From the NCBI GenBank assembly GCA_937873275.1, contig CALMRC010000007.1, positions 1 to 35,034 on the forward strand: a DNA stretch of 35,034 bases, given 5' to 3'. Below the pieces are notes generated by a model that searched no databases, had not been told where the DNA came from, and saw only the letters and a list, made by a program, of their open reading frames with translations. The position numbers and the translations under genes were made by a program. Of this stretch, positions 6,200 to 35,034 are shown piece after piece; position 1 is the stretch's first letter, and each line of letters begins with the position of its first letter. The DNA is from an uncultured Spirochaetota bacterium. GTDB taxonomy: Bacteria > Spirochaetota > Spirochaetia > Treponematales > UBA12059.

Positions 6200-6307
6200 G
6201 AGCTCTGTCCCCGGGGCGGACTCGAGCTCCGTCCCCGTTCCGCCGGTTCTGGAGCCGCCTCGTCGAAATCGAGCTCTGTCCCCGGGTCGGACTCGAGCTC
6301 TGTCCCC
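6200..6307 (-). repeat. Cluster of four dispersed repeats as two paired units
   Basis: Four copies of GAGCTCTGTCCCC lie in the iorA/patatin gap at 6200-6212, 6224-6236 (variant GAGCTCCGTCCCC), 6271-6283 and 6295-6307. In each pair the two starts are exactly 24 bases apart and the intervening bases are nearly identical, so the locus holds two copies of a roughly 45-base composite unit 71 bases apart. Confidence 0.9.
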
Positions 6308-7690: not shown

Positions 7691-10499
7691 AGACCGTGAC
7701 TCCCTTCCAGCCCGCCGGGGCGCTCTCCCGGGCGTAGCGCCGGCAGCGTTCCAGAAGGAGGACCGCCGGAGGGTCCTCTTCCGCCCGCTCCAGGTGAGCC
7801 TGGAAGGCTTTCCCCGCGCCTTCGAAGTCGCCCCGGGCGTACAGCTCGAAGGCCTCCTTGTACAATTTCCGGCCGGCCAGCTTCCCTTCCCGAAGGGGAT
7901 CCCCTCGGCCCACGAGCTCGAAGATACGGACGGACCGGGTCTTGCCCTTGACCTGGACGGCGTCCAGGAAGCGGAGGGGGTAGCCTTTCTCCTCGAGGCT
8001 GTCCACCGAATCCCCGGACATTAAAGCCCGGACGCCGTAATACTTGGCCAGGCTCTCCAGCCGGGAGGCCAGGTTTACCGTGTCCGCGATGGCCGTGCCC
8101 TCGTACCGCTCCGCCTCCCCGATGATGCCCAGCATCAGGTGGCCCGTGTGGATCGCCACCCCCGAGTGGAGCTCGGGACGGCCCGCGGCGCGGAGCGTGG
8201 CGTTGTATTGCTCCAGGGAGTCCATCATCCCCAGCATGGACCGCACGGCCTTGTCGACCGGGGCCGGGAAGAGGGCCATGATGGCGTCCCCGATGTACTT
8301 GTCGATGAAGCCGCCGGAGCCGCGGATGACGGGGCCCATGCGGGACAGGTACTCGTTCAACAGCTCGATGGTTTCCCGGGGACCCAGGCTTTCGGAGAGG
8401 GCCGTGAAGTCCCGAATGTCCGAGAAGAGGACCGTCATCTCCGTGAGGATCTGGTCCCCCAGGCGGACGCTGGTGATGCTGTCCCGTCCCAGGCTCTCGA
8501 TGAACTCCTTGGGCACGAAGCGGGCGTTGGCGCGGCTGAAGTCCGCCAACCGGTCCACGTAGCCCTTGATCTCCGCGGACATGCCGTTGAAAGCCTCCCC
8601 CAGGTCCTCGATCTCGTCCTTCGAGTCGATGTCCACCCGGATGTCGTAGTCCCCCGAGGAGATCCGGCTGACCCCGTGCTGGAGCTTCCGCACCGACCGC
8701 AGGAGCATGTAGGTGAAGCCCGCCAGCATGGCCAGGAAGACCACCAGGATGGCCCCACCCCCGATCGCGGCGCGGGCTGCGAACCTCCGGCCCGCCTCGT
8801 CCAGGGAGTCCCCCCGCATGGACGCCTCGAAGACCCCGACCGTCCGGCCCTGGGGATCCCGGATCGGGGCCAGGGCGGAGAGCCAGGCGCCGTAGATGTC
8901 GTCGTACCGGAAGTACCGGAACTCCCCGGTGTCCAGCACCTCCTGGTGCTCCGGCTTGGCGTAGGGATAGGGTTCCACGTAGTCGAAGGATCCCAGGATC
9001 CACCAGGTCGGTCCGTCCCGGAGGTAGACGTAGGGGAAGATGGAGGAATCCCAGGGATCCTCGTTCAGGTTCACCAGCTCGTCCAGCACCTCGATCAGGC
9101 TGCGGGCCTCCGGGGACTCCAGGAGCTCCATGTACGAGGTGTTCCGGAAATCCAGGGCCGCCGCGGCCTCGGGATCGGTCCGGGCGGCCCCCTGGTGGGC
9201 CAGATGCACCAGCCGGTCCCGGAGCTGGCCGTTCAGGGAATCCGAGAGGGTCTGGTAGACGAAGACCGCGACGCTGGCGACCATCAGGGCGATCACGGGC
9301 ATCATGATCGACAGCTGCTTGAGCAAGAGGGGAGTCCGGCGGCCCAGGATCCGGGCGTACAGGGCGATCACGGCACCCAGGGCGCAGGCGGCTCCCAGGA
9401 CGAGGGCGGCCCAGGATCCCAGGTGGAGCATCCGGAATTTCGGGCCGAACCGGGCGGTACGCAGGACCCATGCCGATCCCTCCGGCCCGATCCGGACGAG
9501 GCTGCCGGACAGCTCGTCGCAGAGGGCGAGCCCCCCGTCCGGGGCGGCCGCCGCGGTCTGGAACATCACGGGGATCCGGGTACCGTCCTCCCCCGCATAG
9601 GCGCCGTCGAAGATCGTCTCGACGCCGCCGGCGGCGGAGCCGGGCCGGAACCGGTACACCCGGGACTTGAAGTCCACGGCCAGGACCGAGCCGTCCCACC
9701 CGGGAAGCAGCGTGGTCGGAAACCGGAGCCGGAAGCCGGCCTCGCCGGGATCTCCGTCCCCGGCCGCGACCGCACCGTCCGCTTGAGCTCTGTCCCCTTC
9801 CGGTCTCCAGCCTTCGATCCGGCCGTCGGGCCGCAGGAACCAGATCTCCGAGTCCGACAGGACCGCCGCCCCCGCGGCGTCGTACACGTCGATCCCCGGG
9901 AGCGCCGTTGGGACCGCCCCGTCCCCCCGGGACGCGTCCAGGGTTATCAGGGACCAGGTTCCGTCCTCCCCCTTCTTGAACCAATGGAGGACGTCCCCCC
10001 GCATCTGCCCGAAGACCGGGTGGCTTTCCCAGTCCGACATGGCCTCGCCCTCGAACCGGTACTCGAGGACCGTGCCCAGGAACCGGCCGGAGGAGGAGAA
10101 TTTCTGGATCCTCCGGGCCTCCACGTTGTCGGTTTCCAGGTCGTAGACCGTGTCGTCCACGTAGAAGGCCCCCGCGGAGTCGAAGCCCAGGGGCCGGCCG
10201 CTGTAGAAGCCGCCGGTCCTCCGGCCGCCCTTGAGGATGAACCGGAGCTCCCCCCGGGGGGACAGCCCCAGGATGCGGCGCTCCCCGGAGTCGGTCAGGA
10301 CCGCGGACCCGTCCGGGGCGATCCGGGCGGAATAGGGGTACGAGAGGTCGAGGCCGGCCTTCCCCGGGGAGACCCGGAGAAAGTCCCGGCCCAGCCATGC
10401 GGGCAGGGCGAGGAGGGCGGCCATTAGGAAAAGGATCGCGTAAACGGGCGACCGGGGACGCGCGGTCGGATTCCCGGGGGTGGTTTCGGATTCCGGCAT
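7677..10499 (-). CDS. Membrane sensor class III adenylate/guanylate cyclase with HAMP domain
   Basis: A 940-residue signalling enzyme. In order: a short cytoplasmic N-terminus; a membrane segment (about 18-37); an extracytoplasmic region of NHL/beta-propeller-like repeats (about 50-350, e.g. ARIAPDGSAVLTDSGERRILGLSPRGEL); two more hydrophobic segments near 365-415; a Cache-like region to about 570; a fourth membrane segment; a HAMP domain (SRISSGDYDIRV...DEIEDLGEAFNGM); a cyclase domain (VLFSDIRDFTALSE, then FIDKYIGDAIMALF, giving both metal aspartates and the substrate-contacting lysine); and a TPR-like C-terminal tail. It would make cyclic nucleotide in response to an outside signal. The start ATG at 10499 follows a TATACT box by 7 bases. 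A 12-mer copy encodes GDRA near residue 236, in a propeller loop. It converges on the patatin gene. Confidence 0.88.
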   Translation of the reverse strand: MPESETTPGNPTARPRSPVYAILFLMAALLALPAWLGRDFLRVSPGKAGLDLSYPYSARIAPDGSAVLTDSGERRILGLSPRGELRFILKGGRRTGGFYSGRPLGFDSAGAFYVDDTVYDLETDNVEARRIQKFSSSGRFLGTVLEYRFEGEAMSDWESHPVFGQMRGDVLHWFKKGEDGTWSLITLDASRGDGAVPTALPGIDVYDAAGAAVLSDSEIWFLRPDGRIEGWRPEGDRAQADGAVAAGDGDPGEAGFRLRFPTTLLPGWDGSVLAVDFKSRVYRFRPGSAAGGVETIFDGAYAGEDGTRIPVMFQTAAAAPDGGLALCDELSGSLVRIGPEGSAWVLRTARFGPKFRMLHLGSWAALVLGAACALGAVIALYARILGRRTPLLLKQLSIMMPVIALMVASVAVFVYQTLSDSLNGQLRDRLVHLAHQGAARTDPEAAAALDFRNTSYMELLESPEARSLIEVLDELVNLNEDPWDSSIFPYVYLRDGPTWWILGSFDYVEPYPYAKPEHQEVLDTGEFRYFRYDDIYGAWLSALAPIRDPQGRTVGVFEASMRGDSLDEAGRRFAARAAIGGGAILVVFLAMLAGFTYMLLRSVRKLQHGVSRISSGDYDIRVDIDSKDEIEDLGEAFNGMSAEIKGYVDRLADFSRANARFVPKEFIESLGRDSITSVRLGDQILTEMTVLFSDIRDFTALSESLGPRETIELLNEYLSRMGPVIRGSGGFIDKYIGDAIMALFPAPVDKAVRSMLGMMDSLEQYNATLRAAGRPELHSGVAIHTGHLMLGIIGEAERYEGTAIADTVNLASRLESLAKYYGVRALMSGDSVDSLEEKGYPLRFLDAVQVKGKTRSVRIFELVGRGDPLREGKLAGRKLYKEAFELYARGDFEGAGKAFQAHLERAEEDPPAVLLLERCRRYARESAPAGWKGVTVFSEK
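9785..9797 (-). repeat. Dispersed repeat, exact copy
   Basis: GAGCTCTGTCCCC on the plus strand. In the cyclase gene it encodes E-G-D-R-A-Q in an apparently non-conserved loop of the sensor region, using the rare arginine codon AGA. Confidence 0.9.
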
Positions 10500-13797: not shown

Positions 13798-14783
13798 CGG
13801 GCGCACATTCTCCCGCTCCGGGGACAGAGCTCGCAGGCATTCGCCTCCGGATCGCCGTGGTGGGAGCCGGAGTGATCGGGAGCCTGTACGCGGCCCGCCT
13901 TGCGGAGGCGGGGTACGAGGTCGCGGTACTCGCCCGGGGCGAGCGGGTCCGGAGCCTCCGGGACGACGGGATCCTCCTCGAGGACGAACGCTCGAAGCGC
14001 CGTACCGCGATACGGGTTGCCGTCCCGGAAACCCTCCGGGAGTTCCGGCCGGACGCGGTCCTCGTGGCGGTCCGCAAGGACCAGGCCGGGGAGGCCGCCC
14101 GGGTCCTCGCGGGGGACGACCCCGGGGGCCTCGTCGTACCCATGGTGAACGCCGCGGACGGACATCCCGAGTTCCGATCCCGGTTCCCGGAGGCCCGGTT
14201 GGCCTTCGCCTTTCCCGGCGCCGGGGGGACAAAGCTTCCGGACGGCACCGTGCGGTACACCATCGTCCCGGGGATCGTGCAGGCCACCACCCTGGGGCCG
14301 TCGGGGCCCGGAACGGACCGGACAATCCTGCGCAAGCTCCTCGGGGCGATGCGGGACGCGGGCTTCCCGGCCCGGCTGGAACGGGACATGGACGCCTGGC
14401 AGAAGACCCACGTCGCCCTGGTGAGTCCCATCGCGGACGCCGTCTACGCCAAGGCGGGAGACCACCGGGCCCTGGCCCGGGACACCCGGACCCTTCGGCT
14501 CATGGCCTCCGCGATCCGGGACGGGTTCCGGGCCCTCCGGGCTTCCGGGACGGCGATCCGTCCCGCCCGGCTGGGTATCCTGGCCGTCCTGCCCGCCCCC
14601 CTCGTCGCGGCGGCCTTCGCCCCGGTGATCGGCTCCTCCTGGGGGGAGACGGTGATCGCCCGGCACGCGAACGCCGCACGTGCGGAGATGGAGATGCTGG
14701 CCGGGGAACTCCGGGCCCTGGTGGAGTCCTCGGGAGCCGAGGCCCCGAGCCTTCGGGAACTCTGGGCCCGGGTCCGGGGCTGA
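13794..14783 (+). CDS. Ketopantoate reductase-like (PanE/ApbA) protein
   Basis: A 329-residue NAD(P)-dependent reductase. The Rossmann motif RIAVVGAGVIGSLYAARLAEAGYEVAVLARG begins near residue 19. The middle has the family's VAVRKDQ and VVPMVNAADG segments; the C-terminal helical domain contains WQKTHVALVSP, where ApbA proteins carry the conserved lysine. Ketopantoate reduction in pantothenate synthesis is the family role, but many paralogues act on other substrates and this gene sits with a cation pump rather than pan genes. The ATG overlaps the ATPase stop. The first 17 residues are an extension not expected in the family and contain the dispersed repeat, read as PGTEL. Confidence 0.78.
   Translation: MTGAHSPAPGTELAGIRLRIAVVGAGVIGSLYAARLAEAGYEVAVLARGERVRSLRDDGILLEDERSKRRTAIRVAVPETLREFRPDAVLVAVRKDQAGEAARVLAGDDPGGLVVPMVNAADGHPEFRSRFPEARLAFAFPGAGGTKLPDGTVRYTIVPGIVQATTLGPSGPGTDRTILRKLLGAMRDAGFPARLERDMDAWQKTHVALVSPIADAVYAKAGDHRALARDTRTLRLMASAIRDGFRALRASGTAIRPARLGILAVLPAPLVAAAFAPVIGSSWGETVIARHANAARAEMEMLAGELRALVESSGAEAPSLRELWARVRG
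13820..13832 (+). repeat. Dispersed repeat, exact copy
   Basis: GGGGACAGAGCTC in the N-terminal extension of the ketopantoate reductase-like gene, encoding GTEL. Its 19-base context, GAGCTCTGTCCCCGGAGCG on the other strand, is identical to the copy at 28289. Confidence 0.9.
14225..14236 (+). repeat. Degenerate repeat-like 12-mer
   Basis: GGGGACAAAGCT differs from the consensus at one base and encodes GTKL in the reductase. It may be coincidental. Confidence 0.35.
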
Positions 14784-14829: not shown

Positions 14830-14856
14830 GAGCTCTGTCCCCGCGGCTCCGTCCCC
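14830..14856 (-). repeat. Dispersed repeat pair upstream of the radical SAM gene
   Basis: An exact GAGCTCTGTCCCC at 14830-14842 is followed by a variant GCTCCGTCCCC at 14846-14856. The second copy ends 2 bases before the -35 box of the next promoter. Confidence 0.85.
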
Positions 14857-16752: not shown

Positions 16753-17901
16753 TCACCCGGGCCCGACTCCGGCGCCCGCCTTCCCCCGGGCCATCCGGAT
16801 CCCCCCCAGGCATGCCAGGGTCGCGGCCTGGCTCGCAGCTATCAGGACCGGAAACACCGTCCCCCCGGATGCCTCGAAGAACCTCCCGATCAGCCACGGC
16901 AGGGCCATCCCTCCCAGGGAGCTGGCGGCCCCGAACAGGCCCGCCGCGGTTCCCGACAGGATCCCCAAGTCTCCGGCCAGGGTGAAGGAGGCGGGCACGA
17001 CGGAAGCCTGGAAAAAGCCCAACAGGACGGCGGCCGTCCAGATCGCCCCGAGGGAATCCGGGAAGGCGAGGAAGACGACGGACCCGGCGAGCGCACCCGG
17101 GACGATCAACGTCAACAGGCGGAACGGACCGAGTCGCCGCACCAGGACGATCCCGGCCAGCCGGCCGAGGGTCAGGGAAGTCCAGAAGGCCGAGGTCAGG
17201 AGGCCGGCCCCCGCCTCCGAGGCCAGGCCGGTCTTCCGGGCGTAGCTGAACGCCCAGTTCGCGAATCCCGCCTCCCCCGCGATAGTGAAGAAGAGCAGGC
17301 CGGCGATCGCCCAGAAGGCCCGGGAGTCCCGGCGGGCTCCCCCGGCGCTCCGGGGGGTGGCCGGGGGGGCGGGCAGCCGGAGGATCCCGATGCCCGCCAG
17401 GACGGCCAGGAGGGCGAAGAACACGTAGGCCGCCCGGAAGGAGCCCGTCATGGCCCGGGACGCCGAGACGAGGAGGGGGGAGAGCAGGGCTCCCACGCCG
17501 AAAGACAGGTGGAGGCCGTTCATGTACGGTCCGGCTCTGTCCCCGTGGAGCCGGACGACGCCGGTGTTCGAGCCCGTCTCGGCCGCGCCCTGGGCCAGGC
17601 CCAGGACCAGGATGCTCCCCAGGAGGACCGGCAGGGCAGCGGCCCGGGACAGGAGGACGAGGGACACGGCGATGACCGCCAGGACGAGCCCCGTCAGGCG
17701 GTTGGGCCGGGTCCGGTCCAGGAGCCTCCCGCCCCCCAGGGATCCGGCGATGTAGCCCGCCCGGTGGAAGAGGAAGAGGCTCGACAGGGCGGCGAGGCTC
17801 GAGCCGGTGTTCCGGGCGAACTCCGGCAGGCCGGGGCCCAGGGACGCGGTGGCCAGGCCGATGATGAGGAAGGCCAGGTAGAAAGCGAGGGTCTGGAGCA
17901 T
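16753..17901 (-). CDS. Major facilitator superfamily transporter
   Basis: A 382-residue permease with about 12 hydrophobic segments. The sequence FHRAGYIAGSLGGGRLLDRTRPNR after the second helix is the MFS A-type loop, and the pattern of a GxLxGGxxxDR motif recalls the fucose/glucose-type branch. No substrate can be assigned. A repeat copy gives GDRAG in the loop before NGLHLSFGVGALLSPLL. The ATG at 17901 is 6 bases from a CATACT box. It ends 16 bases from the convergent pirin gene. Confidence 0.8.
   Translation of the reverse strand: MLQTLAFYLAFLIIGLATASLGPGLPEFARNTGSSLAALSSLFLFHRAGYIAGSLGGGRLLDRTRPNRLTGLVLAVIAVSLVLLSRAAALPVLLGSILVLGLAQGAAETGSNTGVVRLHGDRAGPYMNGLHLSFGVGALLSPLLVSASRAMTGSFRAAYVFFALLAVLAGIGILRLPAPPATPRSAGGARRDSRAFWAIAGLLFFTIAGEAGFANWAFSYARKTGLASEAGAGLLTSAFWTSLTLGRLAGIVLVRRLGPFRLLTLIVPGALAGSVVFLAFPDSLGAIWTAAVLLGFFQASVVPASFTLAGDLGILSGTAAGLFGAASSLGGMALPWLIGRFFEASGGTVFPVLIAASQAATLACLGGIRMARGKAGAGVGPG
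17533..17544 (-). repeat. Dispersed repeat, 11 of 12 bases
   Basis: GGCTCTGTCCCC on the plus strand; the outermost base differs from the consensus. It encodes GDRA in the MFS gene. Confidence 0.7.
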
Positions 17902-21456: not shown

Positions 21457-23075
21457 GGGCCCGCGATAACGGCCCCGGACTTCTCGTCCCGATCGATCCG
21501 GGCGGGGCGGTCCAGGTCCAACAGGCTTCCGGCGCCTTCCCGGGCCGCGGTTCCCACGACCAGGGTGTAGCCGAGGTCCGAGCAGGCGTAGCGGCCGTCC
21601 CAGCCGCCGGGCAGGCGGATGGGGTCCGAGACGAGGCGGGTGCGGAGGAGGCCCTTCTGCTCGGCTTCGGGAGCTCTGTCCCCGCCGGAGGGTTTCCGGA
21701 GAGCCATCCACGAGACGGTCAGGCGGTCCTTGGGCAGTCCCACTTCCCCGGAGAACCGGGTCAACGCCGGGGGGGCCGTGTCGAGGGGCACCGGGAAGTG
21801 GCACCAGGGCATCTTGGGACGCCACTTCGGCGAGTGGACCGGAAGCAGGGCGGATCGAGCCTTGCCGTCCACCCGATCTCCGAGGCCCCCGAAAGCCCCG
21901 GGCATGGGGCAGGCTCGGGAGTGGGGGCAGGGGGATTCGACCCGGAGCCCGGAGAGGAGGGCCGCCTCCCGGAGGGCGGAAAGCATGGCCCCGGAGCGGG
22001 GTTCCCCGGGCTCGGCCACCAGGATCGCCCCTCCGGCCTTGCAGGCCCCGGCCAGGGCGGAAAGAAGATCCGAGGCCCTCTCGCCCAGGTTGCTCTCCCG
22101 GCGGGCGGTGGAACTCCAGAAGAATTCGGTGAAGGCGTTGGCGGAGGCGACGAGATCCGCCTTGACGTGACCTCCCGTGTCCGGGAAGACGGCGTGCCGC
22201 AGGTCCACCTTCCAGGCGCCCGGCCCTAGCACGGGTCCCCCGGTCTTTAGCCGTAGGGCGTCCAGCAGGGCCGCCCCGGACTCCATGGGCTTCCGGACCC
22301 GGTCCGTGCAGAGGACGCGCAGCCCCCGGTCCCGAAGGTCCGGTCGAGCGATCCACAAGGCGATGGGCAGGGTGAGGGGACCGGAACCGATATCCAGGAC
22401 TGTCCCGCCCTCGGGCAGGTCCAGGGGGAGGCTGGCCAGGACGGGGACGAGCCGGACCACGTTCCAGGCCATGAAGTACCGGACGTACGCGGCGAGGACC
22501 GAGGGCTTGCCCAGATAGTCCGCGAACCGGAGGCTCCTCTCGCTGGTAAGGTCCTTCCAGAGCCGGAGGACATCCTCCTTCAGGTACCTTCGTCGGGACT
22601 CCTGTACCGGAAAAATCTCCGCCACCGCGGCCAGGAAGGCTTCCAGGTCCGGTCCTGCGTCCTTGGGAGCCCCGAAGGGCGCTACGAACCGGGCCTTCAT
22701 GCCTCCTCCGGCGCGCGCGCCCTCCTGTCGGGCCAGGTAGGAGGCGATCGGGTCGCCGTCCTCGTGGCGGGCGTGGACGGGACCTTCCGGGCGGTCCGGC
22801 TCCCGATTTCGGGGAGCTCTGTCCCCGCCGCGGAACGGCCGGGTTCCAGGAGTCGCGGGACGGCGGGCGCGGTCCTCCCCGGAGCCCCGCTCCGGCCCGG
22901 GGTCCCGGCGCACGGGGGGTCGGCCCTCCTGTATGTCCCGGCGGGGGGGGCGGCGATCTTCCGCTCCGCGCCCGGAGTCGGGGCGGCTTCCGCCGGGGGA
23001 CGCCGGTCGGCGGTCGAAATTCCGGGGATTTCCACGCGGTTCGGAACCGGGCCGCTTTTTGTTGGGTTCGCTCAC
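21453..23075 (-). CDS. Rsm22-like small-subunit rRNA methyltransferase
   Basis: A 540-residue protein. The first 120 residues are R/P/G/D-rich and very probably disordered and RNA-binding. A SAM-binding methyltransferase fold starts with GGTVLDIGSGPLTLPIAL. The later SPCPHSRACPMP and MPWCHFPVP segments supply the four cysteines that in Rsm22/METTL17 proteins hold an iron-sulphur cluster (family knowledge). These proteins act in assembly of the ribosomal small subunit. Two dispersed repeats give GGDRAP, once in the disordered N-terminus and once in a linker near residue 470. The start is a GTG at 23075, 6 bases from a CATACT box. An internal ATG before KARFVAPFG (22700 region) is an alternative that would omit the basic tail. 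Confidence 0.82.
   Translation of the reverse strand: MSEPNKKRPGSEPRGNPRNFDRRPASPGGSRPDSGRGAEDRRPPRRDIQEGRPPVRRDPGPERGSGEDRARRPATPGTRPFRGGDRAPRNREPDRPEGPVHARHEDGDPIASYLARQEGARAGGGMKARFVAPFGAPKDAGPDLEAFLAAVAEIFPVQESRRRYLKEDVLRLWKDLTSERSLRFADYLGKPSVLAAYVRYFMAWNVVRLVPVLASLPLDLPEGGTVLDIGSGPLTLPIALWIARPDLRDRGLRVLCTDRVRKPMESGAALLDALRLKTGGPVLGPGAWKVDLRHAVFPDTGGHVKADLVASANAFTEFFWSSTARRESNLGERASDLLSALAGACKAGGAILVAEPGEPRSGAMLSALREAALLSGLRVESPCPHSRACPMPGAFGGLGDRVDGKARSALLPVHSPKWRPKMPWCHFPVPLDTAPPALTRFSGEVGLPKDRLTVSWMALRKPSGGDRAPEAEQKGLLRTRLVSDPIRLPGGWDGRYACSDLGYTLVVGTAAREGAGSLLDLDRPARIDRDEKSGAVIAGP
21671..21683 (-). repeat. Dispersed repeat, exact copy
   Basis: GAGCTCTGTCCCC, encoding GGDRAP in a C-terminal linker of the Rsm22-like protein. 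Confidence 0.9.
22814..22826 (-). repeat. Dispersed repeat, exact copy
   Basis: GAGCTCTGTCCCC, encoding GGDRAP in the disordered N-terminal tail of the Rsm22-like protein. The flanking GCGGGGACAGAGCTCC is shared with the copy at 21671 on the gene strand apart from the outer bases. Confidence 0.9.
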
Positions 23076-25582: not shown

Positions 25583-26869
25583 ATGACCAAGGCGCAGAAA
25601 ACTCTCCTCCTGGTCCTGATGGCCGCCTCCATGGTGGCCCTGAACGCCGACACCCAGGTCATGGCCCCCATGCTGGTCACCATCGAGGCCGAGTTCGGGG
25701 TGGACGACTCCGCCGTGGGCGCCATGATGGCCCTTTTTACCGTCGTGGGCGCCGTCGTCTCCCTGCTCTGGGGCTACTTCGCGGACAAGGCCAGCCGGAA
25801 GAAGCTTTTCGTGCTCTCCGTGGCCCTGGGGGAGATCCCCTGCGCCTTAACAGCTCTGTCCCCCTCATGGGAGGTCTTCTTCGTCCTGCGAATCCTGACC
25901 GGAATCGGGGTGGGGGCTGCCTTCCCCCTCGTCTTCTCCATCCTGGGGGACATCTACGACGAGAAGGAGCGGCCCATGGCTTCCGCCATACTGACCACAT
26001 CCTTCGGACTCGGAGCTATCGCAGGACCGGTCCTCGGGGGCTTCGTGGGGCAAGTCATGGGCTGGCGGCTTCCCTTCGTCCTGGCGGCGGTTCCGAACGT
26101 CCCGCTACTCCTGGCCTTCTGGTTCCTGGTGCCCGAGCCTCGGGCTGCGGCCAGCGAGGAGGCCACCCGGGAGCTCGTGGAGGCGGGGATCCTCTACCCC
26201 AAGCACATACGAGTCCAGGATTACGCCCGCCTGGGGAAGGTACCGACGAACGTCTACCTCTTCATCCAGGGCCTCGCGGGGACTATCCCCTGGGGAGCCT
26301 TTTTCTTCCTGAACAAGTTCCTGGAGACGGATAAAGGCTTAACGATCGGACAGGCTACAGCGGTCTATATGGTCTTCGGCGCCGGGATGGTGGCGGGGAA
26401 CCTCGCGGGAGGCAAGCTCGGGGAGTTCGTGTTCCGCCGTTCCGCCAAGGACCTGCCTCTTTTCTGCGGAGCGACGACTTTCCTGGGTTGCCTGGGTACC
26501 CTTGGGGTGGTGACGATGTCCGGCTCCATACCCCTGCTGTCCGCCGCAGGCTTCCTGGCAGCCTTCTTCGCCGCCATGACGGGCCCCAATATGCGGACCA
26601 TGCTCCTGGACGTGAATCCTCCGGAGGACAGGGGACCCATCTTCTCGATCTTCAACCTTACCGATTCCCTGGGCACGGGTCTGGGTCGCTGGGTCGCCGG
26701 GATGCTCTCCGTTGCCCTGGGCTTGGCCGGTGCCATCGCCGTGAGCGCCTCTTTCTGGGTGCTCTGCGGGATCGTGCTTCTCCTCACGGCGCGAATATTC
26801 CCGAGGGACATAGGCATTCTGAAGGAGCGGATGGCTCGAGCCGCACAGGAGATGCGGGGACAGAGCTAA
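25583..26869 (+). CDS. Major facilitator superfamily transporter (spinster-like)
   Basis: A 428-residue permease with about 12 membrane helices. DTQVMAPMLVTIEAEFGV, the loop GYFADKASRKKLF and ILTGIGVGAAFPLVFSILGDIYDEKER give the standard MFS N-domain motifs and resemble spinster-type lipid/organic anion carriers. The ATG at 25583 has AAAGGAG upstream with 6 bases between. One repeat copy encodes ALSP in helix 3 (ALTALSPSWEVFFVLR), where the family also often has an A-P pair. A second copy ends the gene: the last residues GQS and the TAA stop lie in the repeat at 26856-26867. The natural C-terminus may have been replaced. Confidence 0.85.
   Translation: MTKAQKTLLLVLMAASMVALNADTQVMAPMLVTIEAEFGVDDSAVGAMMALFTVVGAVVSLLWGYFADKASRKKLFVLSVALGEIPCALTALSPSWEVFFVLRILTGIGVGAAFPLVFSILGDIYDEKERPMASAILTTSFGLGAIAGPVLGGFVGQVMGWRLPFVLAAVPNVPLLLAFWFLVPEPRAAASEEATRELVEAGILYPKHIRVQDYARLGKVPTNVYLFIQGLAGTIPWGAFFFLNKFLETDKGLTIGQATAVYMVFGAGMVAGNLAGGKLGEFVFRRSAKDLPLFCGATTFLGCLGTLGVVTMSGSIPLLSAAGFLAAFFAAMTGPNMRTMLLDVNPPEDRGPIFSIFNLTDSLGTGLGRWVAGMLSVALGLAGAIAVSASFWVLCGIVLLLTARIFPRDIGILKERMARAAQEMRGQS
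25852..25863 (-). repeat. Dispersed 12-mer, exact copy
   Basis: AGCTCTGTCCCC in the MFS gene, encoding ALSP at the start of a membrane segment. Confidence 0.85.
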
Positions 26870-26936
26870 AATGTCGGCGACGAGGACCGATTTGGGGACA
26901 GATCTCAACTAGGAAGAGGGCCCAGGGGACAGAGCT
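26856..26936 (+). repeat. Cluster of three dispersed repeats upstream of the transposase
   Basis: GGGGACAGAGCT at 26856-26867, variant GGGGACAGATCT at 26894-26905, and GGGGACAGAGCT at 26925-26936, all in the same orientation as the transposase gene. The first overlaps the MFS stop codon, the last ends 61 bases before the transposase ATG. Confidence 0.9.
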
Positions 26937-26997
26937 TTTAATCGGTCTTGTCGCCTTCAATTCAAGTGTAGCACCCTTTTTATGGCGTATCCCTGGC

Positions 26998-27531
26998 ATG
27001 AGAAAGCCAAGGGAGCTTCAAAAAGGGGCCGTATACCATGTTACGGCCCGGGCGAACCGAGGGGAAATGAGCCTCGACGATAAGGGGATGAAGGACCTGT
27101 TTCTTCGGGTCCTTGCCAGAGCGAGGGCGAGGTATCGGTTCCGGGTAGAGAACTTCTGTGTGCTGGGGAACCATATCCATCTCATTATACGTCCTGTGGG
27201 AGGGGAATCGCTTTCCCGGATTATGCAATGGATCCTGAGCGTATTCGCGATGGCGTTTAACCGCCAGCACGGGTACACGGGCCATGTCTGGGGATCCCGT
27301 TTTTTCTCACGCATAATGGCCAACTTCCAACAGTTCGCAAAAGTCTTTGAATATATTGACAAGAACCCGGTGGTTGCGAATCGGGTGGAAACTGCGAACG
27401 ACTGGTTTTATGGGGGCCTTTGGCATCACCGTCACGGGGTTCGAGGAATCGTGGAAGTGCTTGGAGAGTATGCGGTGCTGGCCTTTCCAGACCATGGGTT
27501 GATTCTTATAGGAGGCGACTCGTCGTCCTGA
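26998..27531 (+). mobile_element. Y1 (IS200-like, REP-associated type) transposase gene
   Basis: A 177-residue HUH single-strand transposase. The N-terminus RELQKGAVYHVTARANRGE is the standard REP-associated tyrosine transposase (RAYT) start. The HUH motif is His59-Ile-His61 in LGNHIHLIIRP, and the catalytic tyrosine is probably Tyr109 in KVFEYIDKNPVVANRV, the usual RAYT context. FNRQHGYTGHVWGSRFFSR is another conserved block. The gene is complete and appears functional. Its base composition is clearly lower in GC than its neighbours, which suggests acquisition. The reading frame stays open upstream to beyond 26880 and reads through the repeats (GTEL), but the ATG at 26998 fits the family start; no good ribosome site is visible. 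A repeat cluster precedes it and another copy follows at 28289 in the opposite orientation. Confidence 0.9.
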
Positions 27532-27671
27532 ACAGGACCTTCTACGTTCCCTTCCGCCTTGGCCGGGGCCTTCCGGGAAGAAGGAATGCTCAATCGGGAG
27601 TCCGGTTGCCCACAAGCCGCCGCTCCGGTCGGTTGCCGGCTCAACGGGAAATGCGGAATGACACCCAGCTT

Positions 27672-28154
27672 TTAGGCCCTCACTTCTATTCTGAAAAAAT
27701 TCTTGAGCAGGGCGTCGATGTCGTCCTTGCTCTCGAACGCCAGCTCCAGGTTCGCCTCCCGGAGCTTGGCCAGTAGGCTGCAGATGGTCATGAACAGCAT
27801 CCGGGTATCTGCGGAGGAGCGTTCGCGGATTGAGCGCCGGAATTCGGTTCGCCGTACCTGCAGGATCGGCGCCCTGTCGTCCGCCGCGGCCTCGTTCGGG
27901 GCCCGCCTCAAATTCGGGAAGAGTCTCGCCTATCCGAATACCTCTCCAGCACCGTGGGTGCAGGTGTACACCTCCCGCCGGTTTTTGTCGACGGTCACGC
28001 GAACACTTCCATTCTGGACGATGTAGAGTCTGTCACCTGGTTCTTTTTTGGTGATGGTCCGTTCGTCCTTGACGAGGACCATCTGCTCGCAGGTCCCCAG
28101 CAGGACGGAGACCTCCGGCTCGCTCGGTATGAAAAGGCGGGAGGACCCCGCCAC
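27672..28154 (-). pseudogene. Cyclic nucleotide-binding protein broken by an in-frame TAG
   Basis: Two fragments in one frame add up to one protein. The first reads KKEPGDRLYIVQNGSVRVTVDK and EVYTCTHGAGEVFG, the phosphate-cassette part of a cNMP-binding domain. A TAG at 27930-27932 then falls where the family has the glutamate of the FGE motif, so a GAG-to-TAG change would explain it. The second fragment continues in the same frame (ARLFPNLRRAPNEAAADDRAPILQVRRTEF...) with the C-terminal helices and ends at TAA. The N-terminus before about 28154 is uncertain. A sequencing error or readthrough cannot be excluded. It lies in the lower-GC islet next to the transposase. Confidence 0.7.
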
Positions 28155-28192
28155 GGGGAGTGTTGCCGCCTGGAAAAGGGGGACGGTTTACA

Positions 28193-28239
28193 TGGCGTTC
28201 CATACAACATTCCCATGACAAGGTGGCGTACATACAACA
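28193..28239. repeat. Direct repeat TGGCGT..CATACAACA
   Basis: TGGCGTTCCATACAACA at 28193-28209 and TGGCGTACATACAACA at 28224-28239 are a 31-base-spaced direct repeat upstream of the cNMP pseudogene on the minus strand. It could be an old operator or promoter duplication. Confidence 0.5.
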
Positions 28240-28288
28240 CGAGGCTCCCCTCAGCGCCAAGCCGGCAACCCATCCGGCGTTCCCCGAT

Positions 28289-28301
28289 GAGCTCTGTCCC
28301 C
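28289..28301 (-). repeat. Dispersed repeat, exact copy
   Basis: GAGCTCTGTCCCC in the gap before the CNNM gene, oriented opposite to the cluster upstream of the transposase. Confidence 0.9.
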
Positions 28302-28409
28302 GGAGCGCCTCCGCCTCCTTGCAGTCCCCAGGCCGCTTCGTATATCATTGCACGATATGGACGACCCATACCCTAGTATTCAGGGCTCTCGTTCCGCGGG
28401 AGCGGTGCG

Positions 28410-29666
28410 ATGAGTCCATCCCTCGCCGGCGTCATCGTCTGCTTGGTCTTTTCCGCCGTATTCTCCGCCTCAGAAACCGCCTTCACCTCCCTCTCGATCT
28501 TTCAGATCCAGAATCTCCGGAAGAAGTATCGCCAGGGACGCATCGTTGAGAAGCTGGCCCGGGAACCGGAGGTTTTTCTGTCCACGATCCTGATCGGGAA
28601 CAACGTGGTCAACATCCTGGCCTCCGTCCTGGCCACGGAGTATACCTTGGAGCGCTGGGGGGACAGAGCTCTAGGAGCCGTTACGGGGGTGATCACCCTG
28701 GCGGTCCTGATCTTCGGGGAGGTCACCCCCAAGCGCCTGGCCATCGCCCACAACGAACTCATTGCGGTCCGGGCTGCCCGGTTCATCCTGATCCTCTCGT
28801 ATCTGCTGCGCCCCGCGGTTGCGGTCATCAATGCGGTGAGCTCCCTGGTCACCCGGATCTTCGGAAAGACCTCCAAGGCCGAACTCTCCCTGGAGACCAT
28901 GACACAGATGCTGGCGGTGGCCGAGAGCGCGGGGGTCATCGACTTCGCCAAGAGTTCCATGGTCAAGAACATCTTCCGCCTGGGCACCATGACGGTCCAG
29001 GCGGTGATGACCCACCGGATCGATGTGTTCAGCTTGGACTGCCGGACCACGGCTCAGGAGGCGGCCACGGCGGCGGTGGATGAGCTCCATTCTCGTTTCC
29101 CGGTCTACGACGAGGATCCCGAGAAGATCATGGGGGTCGTCGCGCTCAAGCGGGTCCTGGATGAGGTCGTCCACGGCCGCCGGGATCGTCCGATCCGGGA
29201 GATCATGACGGAGCCCCTGCTGGTGATGTCCACGAAGCCCCTGGGGGAGCTTTTCGACCTCATGAAACGCCGCAAGGAGTCCTTCGCGGTGGTTTTGGAC
29301 GAGTACGGCGGCCTGGCCGGGGTCGTGACCATGCGGGACGTGATCGAGGAGATCGTCGGGGAGATTTATGAGGACGGGGACGAGGAGCCCCGGGAGCGTC
29401 TAAGGCGCCGGGCGGACGGCTCCTACACGGTCTACGGGGACGCACCTCTGTCCCTGGTCGCGGATATCACCGGCGCGGAATCGCCGGGCACCGTGGATAT
29501 CCAGACCGTGGCGGGCTACGTGGCCTGGATCTTGGACCGAATCCCTGTGGAGGGGGATGTAGCCCACACCCCCCTGGGCCGGTTCACGGTGCTCCGGGTG
29601 GAAGCCAACCGGGTGGAGGAGGCGGTCTTCCGGCCCGCTCTCCAGGGACCCGCGGAGACCGAATAA
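28410..29666 (+). CDS. CNNM/CorC (hemolysin C-like) transporter-associated protein
   Basis: A 418-residue protein with the full family layout: an N-terminal CNNM (DUF21) membrane domain with about four helices to residue 150 (SASETAFTSLS, LIGNNVVNILASVLATEYT, FGEVTPKRLAI), two CBS domains (about 190-320: IMTEPLLVMSTKPLGELFD and VVLDEYGGLAGVVTMRDVIEEIVGEI) and a C-terminal CorC/HlyC domain. The family is linked to Mg2+ or Co2+ efflux and cation homeostasis. The ATG at 28410 has GGGAGCGG just upstream. A repeat copy encodes GDRAL in the membrane domain, where the alignment length appears normal. It converges with the permease gene after 27 bases. Confidence 0.9.
   Translation: MSPSLAGVIVCLVFSAVFSASETAFTSLSIFQIQNLRKKYRQGRIVEKLAREPEVFLSTILIGNNVVNILASVLATEYTLERWGDRALGAVTGVITLAVLIFGEVTPKRLAIAHNELIAVRAARFILILSYLLRPAVAVINAVSSLVTRIFGKTSKAELSLETMTQMLAVAESAGVIDFAKSSMVKNIFRLGTMTVQAVMTHRIDVFSLDCRTTAQEAATAAVDELHSRFPVYDEDPEKIMGVVALKRVLDEVVHGRRDRPIREIMTEPLLVMSTKPLGELFDLMKRRKESFAVVLDEYGGLAGVVTMRDVIEEIVGEIYEDGDEEPRERLRRRADGSYTVYGDAPLSLVADITGAESPGTVDIQTVAGYVAWILDRIPVEGDVAHTPLGRFTVLRVEANRVEEAVFRPALQGPAETE
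28659..28671 (+). repeat. Dispersed repeat, exact copy
   Basis: GGGGACAGAGCTC in the CNNM gene, encoding GDRAL between two membrane helices. Confidence 0.9.
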
Positions 29667-29693: not shown

Positions 29694-30866
29694 CTACTCG
29701 ATCGGCACGAGGGATCCCACCGCCATGGCCAGGTACGCGGCCACGGCAAGCCAGTCCCAGGCCCGTCCCGAGATCCCCGCAGGCAGGATCGCCGGTCCGC
29801 CCCTGCGGTTCCGATATCTTCGGTAGGCGGGCACGAAGAGGATGGCCACCAATACGGCGATCGCCCCGCCTGCGGTCCTCATGAACTCGAGGAAGCCCCC
29901 GAACCCCGCCAGGGCCAGGATCAGGGTGGGGACGGTGGACAGGAGCCAGGCGGGAAAGTTCCCTAGCCCCAGGCGTTCCCGGATCATGGAGGAAAGGGCG
30001 AAGGAGATGGACCAATAGCTGGTCAGCATGGCCAGGAGTACGAAACCCGTGCCCGCCAGCTCGGCCCAGGGTCCGAGGGCCCGGCCCCACGCGACCGTTG
30101 CGATGGTGGTGGGTTCCGGTGACAGAAGTAGGGACAAAGTCGTCACCAGGAGTATCAGGGTGAAATTGACGCCCAGGCCAGCGGCCACCGCCCGGGGGAT
30201 CAGTCCCGGCCGATCCGCCAGTCCCAAGGCGGCCTGAGGCACCGAGAAAAAGGCGGCGAAGCAGAACATAGCCATGCCGTAGAGGGCCAGGAGCCGGGAT
30301 GCGTCCGGGGACAGAGCTGGGGCGGGGGCCGGAGCGGAGAACCCGGACTTCGCCAGGGCAGCAAAAGATGTGACCACCAGGGCGGTGAAGAGGACGGCCA
30401 TCAACCCCACGGCCCATTTCTCGGCAATGCCCAGGACCTTGAGCCCGAAGGCCGCCACCGCGGCGGCGGCGACATAGAACGCGAGTCCTCCCCAAGGCTC
30501 CGCCAGGCCCAGGGCGGCCAGGATTTCGTTGCCCCCGGAGACGTAGGCCGCCAGATTGGCGACGAAGACAACTCCCATCACCCCGAAGAATATCCAGGTG
30601 AATGTTCGGCCTCCCTTGCCGGTGAACAGATACTCCCCGAAGAGCTCCACGATCTGTCGACCGCTCCCATCCCCCGCGGCCAGTTCCGCGATCATGAGGT
30701 GCAAGAGGAGGGACAGAGCATAGGCTCCCGCCAGAATCAGGGCCGAAGGGCCGATGCCGTTCAGGGAAACCAGGTAGGGCAGTGCGAGCATGCCTCCCCC
30801 GATCCCGTAGCCCGCGATGATGGCCGTGGCCTCGGGAAAGCTCAAGCGCCGGGCGGGTGCGTTCAT
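29694..30866 (-). CDS. Amino acid permease-like membrane transporter
   Basis: A 390-residue protein with about eleven hydrophobic segments. The N-terminus FPEATAIIAGYGIGGGMLALPYLVSLNG has the unwound first helix (GxGIGGGMLALPY) seen in hydroxy/aromatic amino acid permeases and SLC38-type transporters. The ATG at 30866 has AGGAGG 6 bases upstream and overlaps the amidohydrolase stop by ATGA, so it is translationally coupled to that enzyme. The pair could import and process an amino acid derivative (inference). A repeat encodes ALSP in the loop SAPAPAPALSPDAS, and a partial copy encodes part of YALSLLL in helix 2. Confidence 0.82.
   Translation of the reverse strand: MNAPARRLSFPEATAIIAGYGIGGGMLALPYLVSLNGIGPSALILAGAYALSLLLHLMIAELAAGDGSGRQIVELFGEYLFTGKGGRTFTWIFFGVMGVVFVANLAAYVSGGNEILAALGLAEPWGGLAFYVAAAAVAAFGLKVLGIAEKWAVGLMAVLFTALVVTSFAALAKSGFSAPAPAPALSPDASRLLALYGMAMFCFAAFFSVPQAALGLADRPGLIPRAVAAGLGVNFTLILLVTTLSLLLSPEPTTIATVAWGRALGPWAELAGTGFVLLAMLTSYWSISFALSSMIRERLGLGNFPAWLLSTVPTLILALAGFGGFLEFMRTAGGAIAVLVAILFVPAYRRYRNRRGGPAILPAGISGRAWDWLAVAAYLAMAVGSLVPIE
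30307..30318 (+). repeat. Dispersed 12-mer, exact copy
   Basis: GGGGACAGAGCT in a loop region of the permease gene; on the gene strand it reads ALSP. Confidence 0.9.
30710..30719 (+). repeat. Partial dispersed repeat
   Basis: GGGACAGAGC, 10 bases of the consensus, encodes part of YALSL in the permease gene. Confidence 0.5.
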
Positions 30867-32485
30867 ATCTTCCTCCTGGGGGATGCGAGGGCACGAACCA
30901 GGAACCCGGCCAGGTCCTCCGGGGGCGGCTCCAGGGGGCGGCCTTCCGTCCACGTACCCAAGGGCCGGATCCGGTGGAGTTCGGCCGGGGGAGTCTCGAA
31001 GGGATCCCGGTCCAGGGGGGCGAAATCGGCGTACTTGCCCGTCTCCAGGGTGCCCCGGTCGCCCTCCTCGAAGGCTCCGTAGGCTCCGGCTCGGGAATAG
31101 GCCCGGAGGGCTTCGTACACGGACAGGGACTCCGAGGCCACGGGATGCTCCACGGCCCCGGCGATCTGCAGGAAGGGGTCGAAGGGCTGGACCGGGGCGT
31201 CCGTGGAGAGGGCGGGTACCGCCCCCGCCTGGAGCAGGGACCGCAGGGGCGTGAAAGAGGCGAGGGTCTCGTCGTCCAGAGCCTCGGGATAGGACTTGTG
31301 GAATCGTGCGTCGATCCAGGCGAACCCGGGTTGGACGGGCAGGATCAGGCCCAGACGGCCCGCCCGCTCGACCTGGTCCGGCCGGGGGAACTCGAAGTGG
31401 TCGATCCGATGCCGTCTCGCCCGGGCCGTGCCGCCGGGACCTCCGGATAGTCGCTCGTAGGCCGAGAGGATGGACTCGATGCCCCGGGGACCGATGGCGT
31501 GGGCGGAGATCTGGTAGCCCGCTTCGTGAAAGGGGCGACAGAGTGCGAATGCATCCTCGGGACTTCGGTATAGCTTGCCGGCATGATCCCGGTCCCGGTA
31601 GGGGCGGTCCATCGCGGCGCTCCGGGAAGAGATGGATCCGTCCATCTCCCAGTGGAGGCAGCCCCCGGCTCGGGGCCGGGCCATCCGGTCCTCGTACCGC
31701 CTCACCCGTTCCGGAAGGGTGTACTGGAGCCAGAGTCGGAGCCGGAGGGGCAGGCGCCCCCCTATCCGGGCCAGGATCTCCGTGCCGGGCTCCCGACGTT
31801 CGTTCCCGAAGCCCTCCATGCAATCCACCGCGGCCAGCCCGGCCTGGGCGGCTTCCCGGATCGTCCGGGAGATACCCCGAGCCAGTGCCGCGGGGGACAG
31901 AGCTCGCATCGCATAGGCCATGACCCGGTCCATGTTGAACTCGTGGGCCTCCCCGGTGAGGACTCCGTCCCGGGCTTGAGATTCCAGACCGAGGATCCTG
32001 AGGGCTAAGCTGGAGTAGGAGCTGGAGTGCCCGTCGAAGGACAGGACGATCACCGGGCGACCCGGAATCCAGGCGTCCAGTTCCGGGGCGGAGGGAAGCC
32101 GCTTTTCCGCCAGGACACCCGGCGCCAAGCCGTAGCCGATGACCGGGCCCCGGAACTTCTCCCGGGCGGCCTCCACGAGGAGGACTCTTACCCCTTCCAG
32201 GCAATCCGGGAGGACACGACCGTCCTCAAGGCGGGACAGGATCGTGACCAAGGAGCCCATGGCGGCCTTGGTCAGAAAATGCACGTGGCTGTCCGTAAAG
32301 GCCGGGACGCAGGCGGCGGTTCCGGAGGGCAGGGGAGGGCGGGGAAGATCCGGGGGGAGGGGCTCCCCTTCGGCATAGGTACCGCGGATGCGGCCGTCGG
32401 GCCCCACCCGGAGGGCGGAGAACCGTTCGCCCTCCCGGGCGAGGCTGTAGAAGCGTCCCACCAGTAGCGTGTCGCCGATGCTCAT
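30863..32485 (-). CDS. YtcJ-type amidohydrolase (amidohydrolase 3)
   Basis: A 540-residue metal-dependent hydrolase. The first metal motif is His67-Val-His69 in VPAFTDSHVHFLTKAA. Further metal-type histidines follow in ISAHAIGPRGIESIL and HRIDHFEF, and the aspartate in VPALSTDAPVQPFDPF. The C-terminal segment GTLETGKYADFAPLDRDPF is the family hallmark of the amidohydrolase 3 group. The substrate (amide, formamide or cyclic amide) is not known. The ATG at 32485 lies 8 bases from the predicted -10 box. It is translationally coupled with the permease gene. A 12-mer gives ALSP after AYAMR. Confidence 0.87.
   Translation of the reverse strand: MSIGDTLLVGRFYSLAREGERFSALRVGPDGRIRGTYAEGEPLPPDLPRPPLPSGTAACVPAFTDSHVHFLTKAAMGSLVTILSRLEDGRVLPDCLEGVRVLLVEAAREKFRGPVIGYGLAPGVLAEKRLPSAPELDAWIPGRPVIVLSFDGHSSSYSSLALRILGLESQARDGVLTGEAHEFNMDRVMAYAMRALSPAALARGISRTIREAAQAGLAAVDCMEGFGNERREPGTEILARIGGRLPLRLRLWLQYTLPERVRRYEDRMARPRAGGCLHWEMDGSISSRSAAMDRPYRDRDHAGKLYRSPEDAFALCRPFHEAGYQISAHAIGPRGIESILSAYERLSGGPGGTARARRHRIDHFEFPRPDQVERAGRLGLILPVQPGFAWIDARFHKSYPEALDDETLASFTPLRSLLQAGAVPALSTDAPVQPFDPFLQIAGAVEHPVASESLSVYEALRAYSRAGAYGAFEEGDRGTLETGKYADFAPLDRDPFETPPAELHRIRPLGTWTEGRPLEPPPEDLAGFLVRALASPRRKI
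31893..31905 (+). repeat. Dispersed repeat, exact copy
   Basis: GGGGACAGAGCTC in the amidohydrolase gene, encoding RALSP on the gene strand. Confidence 0.9.
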
Positions 32486-33751: not shown

Positions 33752-35034
33752 GCCCGGCCGGAAGGCGGGCGGATCCGGCCCGGGCGCCGGCACTCCGCGT
33801 TCTCAAGCCCTCCTCGCTGCCGTCCTCCCCCTCCTGGCCTTCCTCGTGGCGCGTCCCCTGTCCGCCCAATCCCCGGAACCGGACATCCTGGCCTTCCGGT
33901 TTACCCTGGCGGGAGCCGCCGTCGCGGGACCCGAGGCCGGGTCGGGCCGGGTCTGGATCGTCTCGGAGGACCGGACCCTCTACATCCTGGACGACTCGGG
34001 GCGGGCCGTTGGCCGTCGGGTCTGGACGGACGGCATCCCCGGGTGGATCGCCCCGGATCCCTTCGGCCGGGCCCTCCTTCCCGCGGTGGACGGCTCCCTG
34101 GTCCTGGTCAATCGGGCGGGGTTGGAGGTCTGGCGGGTCCGACCCGGGGCGCCCGTGGCCAGGCCCCCGGTTTTCGGGGCGGACGGCCGGTCCTTCGCAG
34201 CCGCGGACTCCCGTCTCCTGACCTGGTCCGCCTCGGGAAGGCTTCTATGGTCCGCCGATCAAGCCGCTGGAGTCGTCATCGGCCCCTATGTGCGCTTCAC
34301 GGCCTCCGGGGAGACTCGGGTGGTCGTCGCCCTGGGGGACGGGACCGTCCGGGAGTATCGGGAGGACGGGATCCTTCTGAGCTCTGTCCCCGGCGACCAA
34401 GTCAGAATCCGCTCGAGCTCTGTCCCCTCCGATGTCCCTGCCGTCGGGCCTCCCTCGACCCTCTGCGGCCTAGGGGACGGCCTTCTCCTGGCGTACCGGG
34501 ACGGCTCGGTCTCGATACGGGACGAGAGGGGGGAGGAAACGGTTCGGCTCCGTCTGGCCTCCCCGGTTATCGCCGCGGCGGGGGACAGAGCTGAGGCTTG
34601 GCTCCTTCTTTCCGGGGGTAGCGTAGTCCGCCTCCGGGAGGACGGCACCGTCTCCGGCACGACGCCCACGGGGATCCGGGACGCACGGGACATCCGGGTC
34701 TTCCCGGAGCGGGTCCTGGTCCTCGGGCCCCGGGGGGTAGCGAGCCTGGCCAAGGACGGCCAGGTCTACCGAGATCTGTCCCTCCGCAACGCCCCCCGGA
34801 TGCCGGCGGCCACCTCCTCGGGCATCGTCCTGTCCGCGGGGGAAGACTGGATCCTCTACGCCTACCGCTTCGAGGGTGCCCTGGGGGAACCTTCGCGTCC
34901 GGCTCCGGGGTACGTGGACTTCGCGGCGGCCCGGGCCCGGGCGGAGGAGGAGATTTTCTGGAACCCGGGATTCGGGGACGACGCGGCCCTCCGGGAGCTC
35001 GACCTCGATGGGGCTTCCTTCTTCGATCGGCTGA
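33729..35034 (+). CDS. Secreted beta-propeller-like protein, 5' part only
   Basis: The frame from the ATG at 33729 stays open for 435 codons to the window edge. The ATG overlaps the end of the RlmD-like gene. A signal peptide is evident around residues 25-46 (ALLAAVLPLLAFLVARPLSAQ), so the true start could be further downstream. The mature part has repeated blade-like motifs such as GRVWIVSEDRTLYILDDSGR, DGSLVLVNRAGLEVWRV, TWSASGRLLWSA and DGTVREYREDG, which resemble PQQ/WD-type propellers. The dispersed repeat occurs three times in frame (SSVP, SSVP and GDRA). The function is unknown. Confidence 0.7.
   Translation, partial: MSAYGGIEPGRKAGGSGPGAGTPRSQALLAAVLPLLAFLVARPLSAQSPEPDILAFRFTLAGAAVAGPEAGSGRVWIVSEDRTLYILDDSGRAVGRRVWTDGIPGWIAPDPFGRALLPAVDGSLVLVNRAGLEVWRVRPGAPVARPPVFGADGRSFAAADSRLLTWSASGRLLWSADQAAGVVIGPYVRFTASGETRVVVALGDGTVREYREDGILLSSVPGDQVRIRSSSVPSDVPAVGPPSTLCGLGDGLLLAYRDGSVSIRDERGEETVRLRLASPVIAAAGDRAEAWLLLSGGSVVRLREDGTVSGTTPTGIRDARDIRVFPERVLVLGPRGVASLAKDGQVYRDLSLRNAPRMPAATSSGIVLSAGEDWILYAYRFEGALGEPSRPAPGYVDFAAARARAEEEIFWNPGFGDDAALRELDLDGASFFDRL
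34379..34427 (-). repeat. Two exact dispersed repeats in the propeller gene
   Basis: GAGCTCTGTCCCC at 34379-34391 and 34415-34427, 36 bases apart and therefore in the same reading frame; both encode SSVP. Confidence 0.9.
34581..34592 (+). repeat. Dispersed 12-mer, exact copy
   Basis: GGGGACAGAGCT in the propeller gene, encoding GDRA. It is inverted with respect to the pair at 34379-34427. A more degenerate AGATCTGTCCCT lies near 34773. Confidence 0.9.

Follow-up and report, generated by a model that had tools for sequence, protein, structure and literature searches.

In the stretch of DNA analyzed here (35,034 nucleotides, hereafter the window; its source genome, G000, is a 200-contig assembly), a gene for a RAYT-type Y1 endonuclease lies among many copies of a 12-nt word, GGGGACAGAGCT. 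In this genome and its relatives such words form local gradients around RAYT genes and are not dispersed genome-wide; each word belongs to the RAYT lineage nearby, and the copies are all-or-none and strongly retained. Pairing and locality can be counted directly; how the words are made we infer from genome comparison, and the explanation that we favor, at slightly below an even chance, is that the Y1 endonuclease of this RAYT/TIRYT locus would read one 12-nt word and act mainly in cis, overwriting near-matches. The initial annotation had proposed the locus as the source of a dispersed word; the source-locus part is strongly supported, since words cluster at RAYTs and RAYT and word co-occur, but the known TIRYT/TIRtron class, the local dispersal and the mostly intragenic position of the copies had all been missed.

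The locus is arranged as follows:

26856–26867, + strand: word GGGGACAGAGCT, exact; upstream copy 1, overlapping the last codons and stop of the MFS gene
26857–28399: stretch absent in the same-genus genome G002, where MFS directly overlaps the CBS gene
26894–26905, + strand: word GGGGACAGATCT, one mismatch; upstream copy 2, free of the mismatch in the same-genus genome G001
26925–26936, + strand: word, exact; upstream copy 3
26998–27531, + strand: RAYT/TIRYT gene, Y1 (HUH plus single Tyr) endonuclease, from Pfam, NCBIfam and motifs
about 27672–28154, − strand: broken cyclic-nucleotide-binding protein gene, inside the stretch that G002 lacks; a remnant is present in G001 too
28290–28301, − strand: word, exact; downstream, inverted relative to the upstream copies

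The transposase gene is complete, as first annotated: the ORF is intact, encodes about 177 amino acids from the ATG at 26998, and its product matches Pfam Y1_Tnp (5.7e-11) and, just over the cut-off of 80, NCBIfam NF047646 (REP_Tyr_transpos; 80.5 bits). The motifs NHIH (HUH), VWGSRF (W) and YIDKNP (Y---NP; single Tyr) are largely conserved in 68 homologues, with the second His altered (NHIE) in three rows of the alignment, and together with the NF047646 match they place the protein in TnpAY1 class 2 (RAYT/TnpAREP). It falls outside subclass 2.1, defined by a C-terminal HTH and about 238 residues, as judged by its length and by a Pfam search that detected no C-terminal HTH (Bac_DnaA_C/HTH). Its named relatives come from spirochaete assemblies, and we therefore treat the window as Spirochaetota DNA. 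The three upstream repeats in one orientation and the single opposite one downstream were correctly described, except that the latter starts at 28290 and not at 28289; among relatives, this inverted downstream copy is not constant. The decaying gene reported in the same stretch is the broken cyclic-nucleotide-binding protein gene. The reported lower-GC islet is real as a dip (0.54–0.61 at 26.5–28.5 kb against about 0.68–0.70 over most of the window), but its edge is soft, GC being already 0.60–0.66 from about 23 to 29.5 kb. Elsewhere in the window, positions 17001–17500 show a strong local AT skew (0.49).

The exact word occurs 20 times in the window; allowing up to one mismatch raises the count to 27, where shuffles predict 0.36. 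The whole genome holds 71 words, patchily spread over contigs, and none of the reversed pattern; with shuffle and reversed-pattern controls at about 0, a chance origin is ruled out. A sequence logo of the aligned copies gives a sharp 12-mer, (G/A)GGGACAGAGCT, with no conserved flank beyond the 12 nt, and we found no palindrome in GGGGACAGAGCT, only a short self-complementary AGCT. By heuristic gene calls, 124 of 156 words (about 79%) lie inside predicted ORFs, in all frames, in a region that is about 86% coding; other lineages have a lower intragenic share. Word-carrying genes include those for transketolase, MnmG, an IMS-family DNA polymerase, an ABC protein and a pyruvate-formate-lyase-like enzyme. 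The remaining words of the window are:

2788–2799, + strand: word, from the word scan
4916–4927, + strand: word in a TPP-enzyme gene, common to G001
6201–6307, − strand: four words (6201, 6225 with one mismatch, 6272, 6296) within the N-terminal region of a TPP-enzyme gene, an indel-rich stretch
9786–9797, − strand: word, from the word scan
13820–13831, + strand: word, from the word scan
14831–14842, − strand: word, from the word scan
21672–21683, − strand: word in an Rsm22-like gene, from genome comparison
22815–22826, − strand: word in an Rsm22-like gene, from genome comparison
25852–25863, − strand: word in the MFS gene (ALSP); G002 has GGCGCCAGGGCC in place
28659–28670, + strand: word in the CorC/CNNM-CBS gene (WGDRALG); G002 has GGAGACCTCGCC and G011 GGCGACGCGGCC, same place and length
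30307–30318, + strand: word, antisense in a transporter-like ORF (29694–32204, −), left intergenic by the gene caller; G001 has GGGGACAGAGCC, G002 GGAGCCGGGAGG
31893–31904, + strand: word in an amidohydrolase gene; G002 has GGAGAGAGGCCT in place
34380–34427, − strand: two words (34380, 34416), both common to G001, with different spacing
34581–34592, + strand: word, common to G001

The words at 6201–6307 encode repeated GTEL-type peptides and differ from G001 by indels.

Judged by its sequence, the locus can be assigned to a described class, TIRYT/TIRtron, in which a Y1 gene is flanked by inverted GGGGWSAS words: the copies at 26856, 26894 and 26925 (+) and at 28290 (−) contain GGGGACAG, which fits this motif. 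Di Nocera et al. 2013 (PMC3733652), in the excerpts considered here, give the name TIRYT/TIRtron to RAYT-like genes that have inverted GGGGWSAS repeats on either side, the likeness that the window locus shares, and describe the TIRs as gene-flanking, some of them forming repeat families of modest or moderate copy number. Those excerpts, within a partial coverage of the literature, yielded no TIRtron with a local gradient, intragenic in-place copies, a sharp 12-nt length or RAYT-by-RAYT words; a literature search for GGGGACAG returned only primers and unrelated matches. Most TIRYTs belong to TnpAY1 subclass 2.1, reported to be without REPs (Quentin et al. 2018; PMC6006769). Words of such subclasses may have escaped notice because searches sought hairpins or intergenic repeats.

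In RAYT/TnpAREP systems an HUH and Tyr (Y---NP) enzyme lies by dispersed repeat copies in lineage-specific pairing, and the REPs are 20–40-nt palindromes that have a GT[AG]G foot and lie outside genes, dispersed over the genome (PMC2817692, PMC3116915, PMC6006769). The window locus resembles REPtrons and REPINs in having such an enzyme adjoining its repeat, again with lineage-specific pairing; it differs in that the word is an unpalindromic 12-mer, mostly intragenic and local. A REPtron or hairpin reading was rejected: there is no palindrome, no conserved flank and no GT[AG]G foot, and the 124 intragenic copies do not fit the extragenic position of REPs. IS200/IS605 insertion sequences, of the same catalytic superfamily as the window RAYT, differ in that they mobilize whole elements with subterminal hairpins at 4–5-nt targets. 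The window gene is not one of them, as its product scores 21 bits against the IS200 model NF033573 (cut-off 55) and RAYT copies within one genome are only 58–67% identical to it, i.e. there is no high-identity multicopy element.

Locality was evaluated in G001, which is assembled into 10 contigs and carries five RAYTs. There, 61 of 66 words lie within 50 kb of a RAYT against 8.9 expected, expected counts being approximate for multi-contig genomes, and the density falls with distance through 0.70, 0.375, 0.28, 0.13, 0.05, 0.01 and 0.0014 per kb, about 500-fold from within 1 kb to beyond 160 kb. In the complete single-contig genome G034, one RAYT has 14 of the 42 words within 10 kb, where 0.2 would be expected (p about 1.5e-4 in a rotation test on collapsed clusters); for its other two RAYTs the top words are less clear-cut, as some of them appear in both windows. 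Words also cluster near RAYTs in G010 and G008, more broadly. The four RAYT genes of G000 are on contigs C7, C1, C70 and C130, all among the word-bearing contigs. Around two RAYTs of the genus (G001 C7 and G000 C130) words are few.

Each RAYT lineage has its own word. Among 59 genomes, the window's own included, a RAYT match is present in 17 of the 18 with at least 10 main words, compared with 12 of the 41 others. One word-rich genome without a detected RAYT, a case counted in advance against the source-locus reading, was found (G002), but it consists of about 550 contigs and is broken where a relative's RAYT lies. More distant homologues do carry other repeats, likewise anticipated as a counterargument, and these are instances of pairing. 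An unsupervised search covered 60 RAYTs from across the phylum, each with a surrounding window of up to 20 kb; the top 9-mer reached z of at least 15 in 30 of these, compared with 2 of 27 control windows. The two controls, L237 (G240:C12) and L242 (G079:C9), hold high-copy spaced repeats, putatively CRISPR-like. The local words vary with RAYT clade yet look alike: GGGGACAGAGCT, GGGGACAGACC, GGGGACAGACAC, GGGGTCAGAGC, GGTGTCAGAGC, GGTGCCAGGTTT, GGGGACGGTTCTC and others. Within the single genome G009, all 41 copies of GGTGCCAGGTTT are on contig C82, none farther than about 15 kb from the RAYT there, and 41 of 44 copies of GGTACCAGGTGT, which differs at two positions, are on contig C45, up to about 32 kb from a different RAYT; part of these words sit in arrays. 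No local word was detected around several RAYTs (G009 C132, G010 C11 and most G042 copies). G042, a 2.3-Mb genome in many contigs, has 27 RAYT copies, mostly 40–49% identical to the window RAYT, and of its four RAYT windows that were checked, three show no clear local word. Many bacteria have RAYTs; from a word that is local, intragenic and specific to one RAYT, the activity of these enzymes can be read directly in genomes, and such a word predicts the target and range of each enzyme and provides a simple assay.

To follow the origin of individual copies, we compared G000, G001 and G002, three species of one genus that are about 82–85% identical here. In G002 (contig C351, L112) the RAYT stretch is missing, with its left edge exactly at the first word (upstream copy 1, at 26856). 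This may be the empty site for which comparison with relatives had been advised, or else a deletion, because other family members share with G000 and G001 the leader in front of the CBS gene; we no longer take G002 as a clean ancestral site. Its 10.5-kb contig at this locus holds no word, and G002 has none at 10 sites where G000 or G001 does; words are present in G002 at loci matching the G001 clusters C8, C13 and C1:555k, which are other RAYT neighborhoods. In G002 the CBS, MFS and amidohydrolase sites are occupied by ordinary coding sequence of the same length as the word, and the CBS site is also wordless and of equal length in G011, G016, G018 and G006 of the family and in the more distant G009. 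A gain is seen most clearly in the gene for a zinc-dependent dehydrogenase, where G000 and G002 both read GGGGATGGAGTC and G001 reads GGGGACAGAGCT: 4 of 12 bases differ, compared with a rate of 0.046 elsewhere (p 0.0016 for this single site alone). Only two gains are firmly polarized, G001:C1:452186 and, less cleanly, G001:C1:443405; at the other in-place sites G002 could in principle have lost a word. Several copies are in-place replacements of near-matching sequence at unchanged length. Word–spacer arrays and word-bounded indels, which are found in non-coding or loose stretches, suggest that DNA is also cut and joined at words.

Relative to shuffled words, the exact word is enriched 980-fold near RAYTs, whereas for one-mismatch forms the figure is 26-fold (36 of 66 being AGGGACAGAGCT); we found no enrichment there of two- and three-mismatch forms (1.15- and 0.75-fold), and therefore no visible intermediates span the 3–5-base gaps at gains. 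At alignable sites of G000 and G001, 33 of 46 words are shared (70–72%), compared with about 7% expected from flank identity, and flanks within 20 bp of words are 0.64–0.68 identical against 0.82 overall. Retention beside diverged flanks would be compatible with either constant rewriting or permissive sites under drive.

In the explanation that we favor, RAYT would work close to its own gene on single-stranded DNA, e.g. the lagging-strand template, and would cut at the word; strand transfer, or provoked template switching to a nearby copy, could then replace near-matches (about 6–9 of 12 bases) with the exact word, and in non-coding stretches the same cut-and-join would yield word–spacer arrays and indels. 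A Y1 enzyme that cuts single-stranded DNA near its own gene would account for locality and pairing, and one-step overwriting for the in-place, all-or-none pattern. We know of no step by which a RAYT would produce a 12-nt patch, and the units that known Y1 enzymes mobilize are longer and flanked by hairpins. The most specific form, in which the endonuclease writes near-matching 12-mers around its own gene, also in other genes, into the exact word in one step and at unchanged length as a private, distance-graded mark, is possible but doubtful; if true, it would give a mobile-element-derived enzyme a new means of altering protein-coding genes.

The strong rival to writing is a local drive or selection like that of DNA uptake sequences (DUS/USS), a serious possibility that we rate tentatively, somewhat short of probable. 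Here RAYT would improve the cutting of word-bearing DNA, its release or its recombination into other cells; words would arise by mutation or recombination and, since RAYT-linked words would help it spread, would be retained near RAYT, with the distance decay reflecting linkage and not enzyme reach. Like the window word, DUS/USS are short exact words that originate in place in permissive gene parts and are conserved while their flanks diverge, and many recent DUS are too divergent for an origin by point mutation (PMC2397512, PMC1939737). The word retention seen here (70–72% against about 7%) and the flank identity of 0.65 against 0.82 overall fit such a drive; in DUS the same combination is caused by biased uptake and recombination (PMC2397512), which by analogy would count against writing. 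However, over-representation of DUS declines gradually with mismatch load (PMC1939737), whereas two-mismatch forms are unenriched here. DUS are also genome-wide and competence-tied, and the window word, with its about 500-fold drop in density away from RAYT, stays within tens of kb of a Y1 endonuclease gene. To our knowledge, RAYTs have no uptake or transfer function.

It is rather improbable that the locus is an ordinary TIRtron whose words are the ends of small RAYT-mobilized elements (REPIN- or MITE-like), inserted near their source and later trimmed. The known TIRYT class with GGGGWSAS ends, in the excerpts cited (PMC3733652), the arrays and word-bounded indels of non-coding or loose stretches, the partly arrayed words of G009, and the upstream words within 1 kb of RAYTs in G001, which follow RAYT orientation in 6 of 6 cases, would all suit such elements; the absence of a conserved flank beyond 12 nt and the in-gene copies that substitute sequence at unchanged length argue against them. 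A host-factor binding site that organizes or regulates these regions, with RAYT as passenger or reader, would explain the strong retention of the word, but different RAYTs of one genome have different words and the neighborhoods hold unrelated housekeeping genes, and we consider it quite improbable. That word-rich contigs come from another organism, as the patchy words of a 200-contig assembly might suggest, has a negligible probability, and chimeric assembly is refuted, because the word-rich G000 contigs align with the RAYT-centered clusters of G001 and the complete genome G034 clusters alike. On one further contig, G000 C73, which matches the G001 cluster C1:565k where the RAYT is complete, a 51-residue RAYT remnant (G000:C73:25973-26125) is still surrounded by words.
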